Shown: piece by piece, positions 24,404 through 26,376 of the stretch
Layout: every line of letters starts with the position of its first letter
How positions within the stretch are numbered: the first letter of the stretch is position 1
NCBI GenBank assembly: GCA_001314625.1
Contig: LJSH01000006.1
Location: 140,746 to 204,745 of the forward strand
Direction of reading: 5' to 3'
DNA length: 64,000 bases
Source of the DNA: Oceanicaulis sp. HLUCCA04
Lineage (GTDB): Bacteria > Pseudomonadota > Alphaproteobacteria > Caulobacterales > Maricaulaceae
Made by a program: the position numbers and the translations under genes
The notes under the pieces: model-generated
What the model saw: only the letters and a program-made list of their open reading frames with translations
Database searches by the model: none
Told to the model about the DNA's origin: nothing

Positions 24404-24904
24404 CTAGAACAGCCCCAGGAATTTCTGGCGCTTGCGCGGAGCCTGCGGTGCGGCGGCCTCATCGCGCTCACCGGCATCTGATTGGGGCAAAGCAGACGCA
24501 GCCGCCTGTGCTTCTCCGGCGAAGCCCGCACCCGAATGATCGCCTGAAATCGCCGGAGCCGGATCGGCTTTCGGGCGCTCGGGTGCTGCCGCCATGGGCG
24601 GTTCGGGCGTACAGATATCGGCATCGCACAAGGCATGGCCGATCACGCCGGACGTGTTCAGCGGCAGTGGTGAATATGGCCCTTGCGTATCGGCAAGGCC
24701 AAGCCGGGTGCGCAATTCCATACGGAAAGCCCCCGCGCGGGTTTCGATGCGGCGGCGGCGGTCAGCCTCCTCGCGCAGCCGCGACAGATCGGCCGGACGC
24801 GGCGCGCGTACGGCAATCGCGCATTCATCACGCACCTTGACCAGCGCGGCGCGGGCGCGGTCCAGATCAAGCCGGGACGGGTTGTCGTTCGTATCATTGC
24901 TCAT
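24404..24904 (-). CDS. Hypothetical protein (low-complexity, downstream of the Ntn-hydrolase-like gene)
   Basis: Start MSNDTNDNPSRLDLDRARAALVKVRDEC; closely follows 24931-26169. Confidence 0.6.
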   Translation of the reverse strand: MSNDTNDNPSRLDLDRARAALVKVRDECAIAVRAPRPADLSRLREEADRRRRIETRAGAFRMELRTRLGLADTQGPYSPLPLNTSGVIGHALCDADICTPEPPMAAAPERPKADPAPAISGDHSGAGFAGEAQAAASALPQSDAGERDEAAAPQAPRKRQKFLGLF

Positions 24905-24930: not shown

Positions 24931-26169
24931 TCAGGCCTTGCGAGCATACCATTCAACGCCGCCGGTTTGCGAGATCATCACCACATCCACATCGCCGCCG
25001 ACGCCGGTCTGGGTCTGGTGCAGGCTGCTTTTGAGGATATTGAGTTCCACCAGCGCCTTGGATGTCTCGGCAATCTGACGCTTGCCCGACGCCGACACCA
25101 CCTGGATGAAGGGCTTGATAAATTCTTCCTGGCTGACGGCATGGGACGCCTTGATGAAATGGCCGGTGAGCGCGGGCAGTGTGCCCTGCCCGATCCGCTC
25201 CATCACATTGGCGGCTGCCTCGCCTTCCATGCCCGCCTCACGCAGCGCGGCCTCGGCCGCCGCTTCATTGGTGATCATGTTCATGGAGATCATCATGTCG
25301 AACATGAGCGGGTGGATGCCGCGCAGGAAGGCATGGGTCATGTCGGCCTGGGCAAACGTGCGCACAAAGGCGTTGGGTCCGTCATCGACGCCCACAGCCG
25401 TCGTCTCGTCATGCGCACGCTTCATCACCCCGTCGACCAGGATGGAGGCATAGTGGTGCTCAAAGACCGGGAAAATGTCATTTGATCCCAGACCGGCAAA
25501 CACCAGACCGGCATAGGGCTCCAGAAAGGCCGGCTTGGTGACGATCATGTAGGCAAAGTCGAACAGGCGGGCGCGCATCGCCTCTTCCTGCCCGAACGGT
25601 CCGAGCGCATCTGCGATCAGCTGGTCGAGCATCTCGCCGAAAATCTCGTAGAAGCGCTCGCGGGTCAGGTGCTCAAACACCTCCAGATCGGCGCGCGGAC
25701 GCCCGCTCTCATCATTGGCCAGATGGCTGCGGTAAAGCTCAAGCGTGGCCTCGAAGGCTTGCGCATCATCCTCATAACCGGCGCCGGGATAGCTGGCCAT
25801 GGCGCGGGCGTGATTCATCAGCGTAAGAAAGGCTGCCCGCATCAGCTCTTCAAATTCCTCGCGCTCCTCGCGCTCGGGGAAGAGCTTGCGATTGCCATCC
25901 ACGAAAGCGAAGAAGGCCTTCGCACACTCGGCCACGCTTTCGAACGCCGTGCTCCCGTGCTGCTGGCGGAAGGCGTGGGCAATCTGCGACCATGACCGGC
26001 CCAGCACATCGCCGCGCGAATAGACCATCAGCGCGACCGAGCCGCTGAGCGGCAGGATTTTCTCTGCTTCCAGCGTGACAACCGGCTCCGGCCCGCCGCC
26101 ATAGGTGACAGCGCTATCAGCAGCCAGCGCCACCGCCTGCCGGTTCATGATCATCACTTCTGACGTCAT
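24931..26169 (-). CDS. Proteasome-like (20S/HslV-type) Ntn-hydrolase-related protein, unknown function
   Basis: M|TSEVMIMNRQAVALAADSAVTYGGGPEPVVTLEAEKILPL; Thr as residue 1 after Met removal, Asp at residue 17, Lys at 36; about 370-aa C-terminal extension. Confidence 0.7.
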   Translation of the reverse strand: MTSEVMIMNRQAVALAADSAVTYGGGPEPVVTLEAEKILPLSGSVALMVYSRGDVLGRSWSQIAHAFRQQHGSTAFESVAECAKAFFAFVDGNRKLFPEREEREEFEELMRAAFLTLMNHARAMASYPGAGYEDDAQAFEATLELYRSHLANDESGRPRADLEVFEHLTRERFYEIFGEMLDQLIADALGPFGQEEAMRARLFDFAYMIVTKPAFLEPYAGLVFAGLGSNDIFPVFEHHYASILVDGVMKRAHDETTAVGVDDGPNAFVRTFAQADMTHAFLRGIHPLMFDMMISMNMITNEAAAEAALREAGMEGEAAANVMERIGQGTLPALTGHFIKASHAVSQEEFIKPFIQVVSASGKRQIAETSKALVELNILKSSLHQTQTGVGGDVDVVMISQTGGVEWYARKA

Positions 26170-26376
26170 CGGCCCATTTCCCCTCACCGGTGTCCTTTTG
26201 AAGGCCACCAGCCTCTTCGTTGCCGCGGCCCCTCTATTGCCCGCAAGGCAACCCGTTAACGGAAGGTTACCGCGAAAAATCCGGCAATGTTAAGGACAAA
26301 ACGGGCCGTTAACCGCGATTGGACCGATACCGTGTGCGCAAAATGCCACGTTGCGCCGTCTGACCGCGCCGGTGGG

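Follow-up and report, generated by a model that had tools for sequence, protein, structure and literature searches.

Introduction

Twenty-two families of proteasome homologues were described by Fuchs, Alva and Lupas in 2021, and function was not assigned to them (PMC8665760). Among the PMI types, PMI-3 and PMI-4 carry insertions after H1/H2 and between H3/H4, phage members occur only in PMI-4, and no genomic context suggestive of function was found by these authors (PMC8665760). Connectase, a proteasome-like monomer, acts as a ligase (PMC8665760). Our literature search on PMI-4 returned no treatment beyond Fuchs et al. (2021). Two kinds of protein tail are also relevant here. Proteasome activators dock by the C-terminus, with HbYX tails on the 20S alpha-ring (PMC7226402), and the MinD targeting sequence is a weak anchor, which gives membrane binding only at higher valency (PMC6803595).

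The locus treated here lies in a stretch of 64,000 nucleotides from Oceanicaulis sp. HLUCCA04, hereafter the window. The first-pass annotation had called its product an unrecognised proteasome-like hydrolase. The word holds for Pfam, NCBIfam and PADLOC, where neither the enzyme nor the gene following it gave a hit, but not for the kind of protein, since PMI types with the same two insertion sites have been described (PMC8665760). What the present analysis adds is the partner gene, cognate to the enzyme, together with its tail. The neighbour gene, which the annotation mentioned only in passing, became the most informative feature of the locus.

Enzyme gene and active site

The features of the locus are collected in Table 1. 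The enzyme is read from an ATG at 26169 through 412 codons to a stop at 24931 on the minus strand. Its N-terminus is MTSEVMIMNRQAVALAADSAVT, and a Shine-Dalgarno-like GAGGGG is located approximately 10 nt 5' of the ATG. A GTG at 26208 was also considered as the start and was ruled out, because conservation in the orthologues begins at Met-Thr. These 14 orthologues, 67-93% identical and found in Glycocaulis, Marinicauda, Oceanicaulis, Alkalicaulis and Woodsholea, all start with Met-Thr. Omega values of 0.07-0.14 between close Glycocaulis orthologues showed purifying selection on the gene.

Table 1. Features of the enzyme-partner locus in window coordinates.
Feature	Position	Strand	Evidence
Ntn hydrolase of proteasome-like type (412 aa, N-terminal MTSEV)	24931..26169	-	ORF and orthologues; AF2 pLDDT 89.7; Foldseek to 20S beta subunits; phrog_5990 E=5.9e-50
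Thr2 codon (mature Thr1, predicted nucleophile)	26164..26166	-	invariant 130/130; aligned with T. acidophilum 20S beta Thr1
Asp18 codon (mature Asp17)	26116..26118	-	invariant 130/130
Lys37 codon (mature Lys36, equivalent to Lys33)	26059..26061	-	invariant 130/130; aligned with 20S beta K33 and, weakly, HslV K33
First helical insertion (approximately residues 91-217), flanked by H1/H2 and strand S6	25519..25899	-	model secondary structure; corresponds to site 3 in Fuchs et al.
Second helical insertion (approximately residues 286-362), flanked by H3 and H4	25084..25314	-	model; corresponds to site 4 in Fuchs et al.
Core strands at the C-terminus, QTGVGGDVDVVMISQTGGVEWYA, corresponding to SASGGMIDVAVITRKDGYV of 20S beta	24943..25011	-	family profile aligned to 1pma/3c91 beta
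Partner gene (166 aa), following the enzyme after 26 nt	24404..24904	-	adjacent in all Maricaulaceae loci; same 16/79 genomes; omega 0.14-0.32
Partner motif C-D-A-D-x-C	24611..24628	-	Cys, Asp and Ala positions invariant among Maricaulaceae partners; CDGDSC in one f118 partner
Tail RKRQKFLGLF at the partner C-terminus, with the stop codon	24404..24436	-	tail pattern once in genome; 48/48 tail matches among 7590 ORFs

Removal of Met1 would expose Thr1. The spacing of Thr1, Asp17 and Lys36 after such removal, as claimed in the annotation, was borne out, with Thr2, Asp18 and Lys37 of the ORF unchanged in all 130 homologues down to approximately 20% identity; no homologue departed from Thr1 or Asp17. 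The enzyme is a predicted Thr-nucleophile hydrolase. The absence of an adjoining HslU, also claimed earlier, was confirmed, the neighbours being peptidase-like and GAF-like genes with no AAA+ gene among them.

Searching the same genome with PF00227 gave HslV on another contig as the sole hit, and no 20S alpha subunit was found; the window enzyme itself did not reach the curated cut-off. Among 52 enzyme relatives, six matched PF00227 at E<=1, the best at 8.6e-4. As a single sequence, the enzyme retrieved nothing relevant from the PDB by phmmer. The profile phrog_5990, an unnamed PHROG (a phage family without function), matched all 52 tested members of the enzyme family.

Fold and insertions

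The AF2 model of the enzyme (pLDDT 89.7, pTM 0.86) has the alpha-beta-beta-alpha Ntn fold of proteasome beta subunits, the outcome for which the annotation had proposed structure prediction as a check. The input was a 52-sequence alignment including 37 viral relatives, whereas 15 close orthologues alone gave a pLDDT of only 54. The best 50 Foldseek matches in the PDB were all proteasome-family chains, headed by 20S beta subunits (E 3.7e-4, prob 1.00), while Anbu came in at rank 41; the TM score normalised by target was about 0.5. The family profile matched T. acidophilum 20S beta with E 0.0025, placing Thr1, Lys33 and the GGxIDVAVI strand in register and, in the C-terminal part, VGGDVDVVMISQTGG on SASGGMIDVAVITRKDG. 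With a narrow HslV alignment as target, HHalign returned a probability of 3.9% only, Thr1 and Lys33 nonetheless being in register. By its modelled fold, the enzyme is a member of the proteasome-like superfamily.

While the fold was as annotated, the C-terminal extension of roughly 370 aa did not stand, as the last two core strands sit at the C-terminus. The core strands align at both termini, so the core spans the whole chain and the surplus consists of two helical insertions. In the model, the helices of the first occupy residues 99-211, ahead of a strand at 220-226, and those of the second occupy 287-360, after H3 and before the last long helix. Two details count against the reading favoured below. 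Firstly, the profile alignments end before reaching 20S beta Gly47, and the likely equivalent is Tyr50, so that the Gly47-type oxyanion position is probably occupied by Tyr. Secondly, the equivalents of 20S Asp166 and Ser169 appear non-conserved in the family.

Because both insertions are present and relatives are common in phages, PMI-4 is the best fit for the window enzyme, an assignment by described architecture and phage occurrence.

Partner gene

The enzyme nearly always travels with a small, fast-changing neighbour gene. In the window this is the co-directional gene which the annotation had noted downstream, and it is a real one, under purifying selection with omega 0.14-0.32 as against 0.07-0.14 for the enzyme. 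The Maricaulaceae partners are 140-220 aa long and consist of a conserved N-terminal part, the CDADxC segment, a variable stretch, which is probably disordered, and a C-terminal end that stays constant, for example KKRKKFLGIF. Orthologous enzyme and partner were present in the identical 16 of 79 genomes of the window's family, always adjacent, though these genomes are related and do not amount to 16 independent events. A congeneric genome (G755) contained neither gene. A search for terminators and promoters of a two-gene operon gave chance-level matches only.

Six genomes of genus g259 carry a divergent, mobile-like enzyme copy and no standard partner. At two loci of this genus (L164/L165, family f1), the divergent copy was placed near mobile relatives in the tree and is followed by a different gene of 99 aa.

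In a second family of the same order (f182) the enzyme is near universal and single-copy, being present in 59 of 62 genomes, and an adjacent downstream small gene was found at 27 of the 27 core loci examined. The body of this partner is unrelated (MTDRLKQIWSGFEE...) and the CDADxC segment is missing from it, while its C-terminal tail is the same, [K/R]n-FLG[I/L]F. The flanking genes differ between the two families and the pair stays together, which makes the pair the conserved unit.

Partner tail

The tail pattern had 48 matches among 7590 ORFs of related loci, and every one of them was the ORF right after the enzyme (about 43 distinct loci). As the pattern was drawn up after the tails had been seen, its informative part is the absence elsewhere in the 7590 ORFs and not the hits. 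In the window's own genome it occurs once, in the partner. All 43 loci of the two families have a tail whose very last residue is Phe, in the forms FLGIF, FLGLF, FGIF, FGLF, FWLF and FWIF.

Chromosomal copies in four further lineages (f118, f125, f93 and f7) are also followed by a small gene, with the ends KKKRRGFFGLFRRK, RKKGFLRRLFGAR, PSWLKRLFSRK, KKKRGFFGWLFGR or RRRSWVGRFFFGD; the one in f125 is RKKGFLRRLFGAR. Tails of sister lineages extend past the motif (GFFGLFRRK, FLRRLFGAR). The C-terminus of E. coli MinD, taken from its genome, is KKGFLKRLFGG / EEEKKGFLKRLFGG, a membrane-targeting sequence to which the f125 partner tail is near-identical and the f93 and f118 tails are similar. The window tail equals that of MinD in charge and amphipathicity, with a hydrophobic moment muH of 0.42, a charge z of +4 and a lipid-binding score D of 1.72 against 0.41, +4 and 1.71, the background D being 0.38 +/- 0.63.

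On these grounds we tentatively favour, at somewhat short of an even chance, a partner-guided Thr hydrolase in which a small cognate adaptor probably tethers the enzyme to the membrane in the window's clade. The f7 tail, with its poor lipid-binding score, speaks against tethering, and so does the window-clade tail itself, as it has only about five hydrophobic residues and ends exactly at Phe, which would fit docking of a free C-terminus too.

HslU C-termini insert into HslV and activate it. The partner tail might likewise be a docking peptide, whose free C-terminus would enter a pocket of the hydrolase assembly and activate or open it, with no membrane involved. This second-ranked reading we consider unlikely. 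The constant end at Phe on unrelated bodies argues for it, as does the enzyme being the sole constant companion of the partner, and such docking is an established behaviour of proteasome activators (PMC7226402). However, the residues which follow the motif in the sister lineages indicate that a fixed C-terminus is not needed there, and the physico-chemical equality of the tails with the MinD anchor favours the membrane.

Mobile copies

Phages, prophages and satellites commonly carry relatives of the enzyme. Maximum-likelihood phylogeny placed the virus and plasmid copies in one large cluster and the chromosomal alphaproteobacterial copies outside it, deep supports being moderate. The mobile copies (phage, satellite and plasmid) encode an extra C-terminal KRKHYF...LN segment. 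A small ORF, defined as 38-90 aa with a Shine-Dalgarno sequence and within 60 nt, was found directly downstream at 37 of 62 mobile-type loci, as compared with 9 of 194 controls, which were long ORFs elsewhere in these loci (Fisher p 9e-20). These small ORFs fall into several unrelated-looking groups. Phage-copy partners are mostly devoid of the chromosomal-clade tail, and membrane tethering is therefore not a family-wide role.

Several observations were made on individual mobile copies. Aromatic pairs (FFNVP, YFNLP, NFFTKL, SFFSR) recur in the small phage-side ORFs (L069, L081, L109, L135 and others) and are perhaps a shared docking motif. In Streptococcus satellite phage Javan103 (L177 9001-10380) and others, the homologue and a gene of 55 aa are located at the very end, beside a regulator, where accessory cargo is expected; these copies are annotated merely as hypothetical. 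Stenotrophomonas phage BUCT708 (L176 4013-5263) has the homologue alone, on the opposite strand and beside holin and lysozyme genes, in a moron-like manner. An unannotated homologue in Hyphomicrobiales bacterium UR115 (L211, CP131057.1) is split over two overlapping frames and is probably a frameshifted copy.

On four Rhizobium plasmids and, in the other orientation, one Mesorhizobium plasmid, the homologue lies approximately 1-3 kb from a multiubiquitin gene and a ThiF-type E1 (records L218, Rhizobium gallicum plasmid; L220; L222; L179, Mesorhizobium plasmid 131-3-5), and the Rhizobium plasmids also have DUF6527 and a ClpP-like gene. This proximity was seen in 5 of 10 enzyme-bearing plasmid records, E1 being present in 65 of 72,556 records. 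For the window locus, a link to ubiquitin-like E1 and multi-ubiquitin was unsupported, as its own genome gave no multi-ubiquitin hit with a model that was also silent in control genomes.

Could the small protein be a cognate inhibitor, an immunity factor or a dedicated substrate, in a cassette resembling toxin-antitoxin or defence systems, with the mobile copies as cargo of phages and satellites? We place this third and regard it as rather improbable. It would agree with the isolated family genes in phages, with the copies at the end of streptococcal satellite phages, and with the two-gene layout and the small, fast-evolving partners. Antitoxin genes, however, usually precede toxin genes, and here the small gene is second. 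In addition, PADLOC on 52 enzyme relatives gave single-member stray hits only and nothing consistent, and the f182 gene, with its near-universal distribution in single copy, behaves as core and not as cargo.

Considerably less probable is that the hydrolase is a connectase-like protein ligase or a site-specific processing enzyme with the partner, or its CDADxC segment, as target. Connectase is a precedent for proteasome-like monomers as ligases (PMC8665760), and the CDxDxC segment, invariant in Maricaulaceae partners, recurs as CDGDSC in one other lineage, in the otherwise unrelated partner L018. Its absence from the f182 partners counts against this, as does the lack of an insertion between S3 and S4 in the enzyme model, where connectase has one. 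Least probable, and already disfavoured, is an inactive relic or a pair of chance neighbours linked merely by inherited gene order, for the relatedness of genomes within a family does weaken the co-occurrence counts, but the active-site residues are intact throughout the homologues, both genes are under purifying selection, both are missing together from one congener, flanking order is not conserved and the same tail sits on unrelated bodies in two families.

Proposed mechanism

In the preferred reading, tethering of a partner-guided hydrolase, the locus would be a two-gene cassette. The first gene would encode a PMI-4-like Thr-nucleophile Ntn hydrolase, activated by Met1 removal alone, whose two helical insertions depart from the compact stacked-ring shape of the 20S/HslV type and probably serve as a lid or as a platform for binding. 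The product of the second gene would be a small, largely disordered and fast-evolving cognate partner, which positions the hydrolase or loads it. Within the chromosomal clade of Alphaproteobacteria to which the window belongs, the basic-hydrophobic tail of the partner most likely binds the inner membrane in a MinD-like manner, and several weak tails on a presumed oligomer could together tether the hydrolase. Thus held, the enzyme may cleave or ligate a restricted range of substrates chosen by the variable body of the partner. The wider proposal, in which functional PMI-4-type homologues, whether chromosomal or viral, are family-wide a two-component system with a small cognate protein encoded just downstream and the alphaproteobacterial branch is membrane-tethered through the MinD-like tail, appears doubtful to us.

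A conserved, co-inherited partner turns one of the largest families of proteasome homologues from the 2021 survey into a testable two-component system, and the partner gene gives a first lead on the function of these enzymes. In the family where the enzyme is near universal, a simple gene deletion could reveal its role. If the tail is MinD-like, the result would be a membrane-tethered proteasome relative; to our knowledge, membrane recruitment by such a tail is a mode not known for any of them. If the tail docks, it would be a further origin of C-terminal activation in proteasome-like enzymes.

Comparison with known systems

PMI-4 shares with the window enzyme the proteasome-like core with Thr1, Asp17 and Lys, the long insertion after H1/H2 and the second one between H3 and H4. 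Like the enzyme family, it is widespread in bacteria and phages and has no AAA+ neighbour. As published, PMI-4 lacks informative context, whereas a dedicated downstream partner was found here; the KRKHYF...LN extension of the mobile relatives is absent from the window clade. PMI-3 has the same two insertion sites, but it has few members and none reported in phages, as opposed to the many phage copies here.

The Thr1-Asp17-Lys33 layout is shared with HslV, which, however, has approximately 170 aa, is paired with HslU and is detected by PF00227, while the window enzyme has 412 aa, is PF00227-negative and has no AAA+ neighbour. The 20S beta subunit is the best fold and profile match, although the insertions of the enzyme are absent from stacked 20S rings. 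Anbu has a C-terminal helix H5 extension and a PF00227 hit; the chain of the enzyme ends at the last core strand and gives no such hit. The helical insertion of connectase lies between S3 and S4, a position at which the enzyme model has none. The likeness to MinD is confined to the tail, since the partner is without an ATPase domain. The MinD tail needs more than one copy, which several partner tails on an oligomeric hydrolase would provide.
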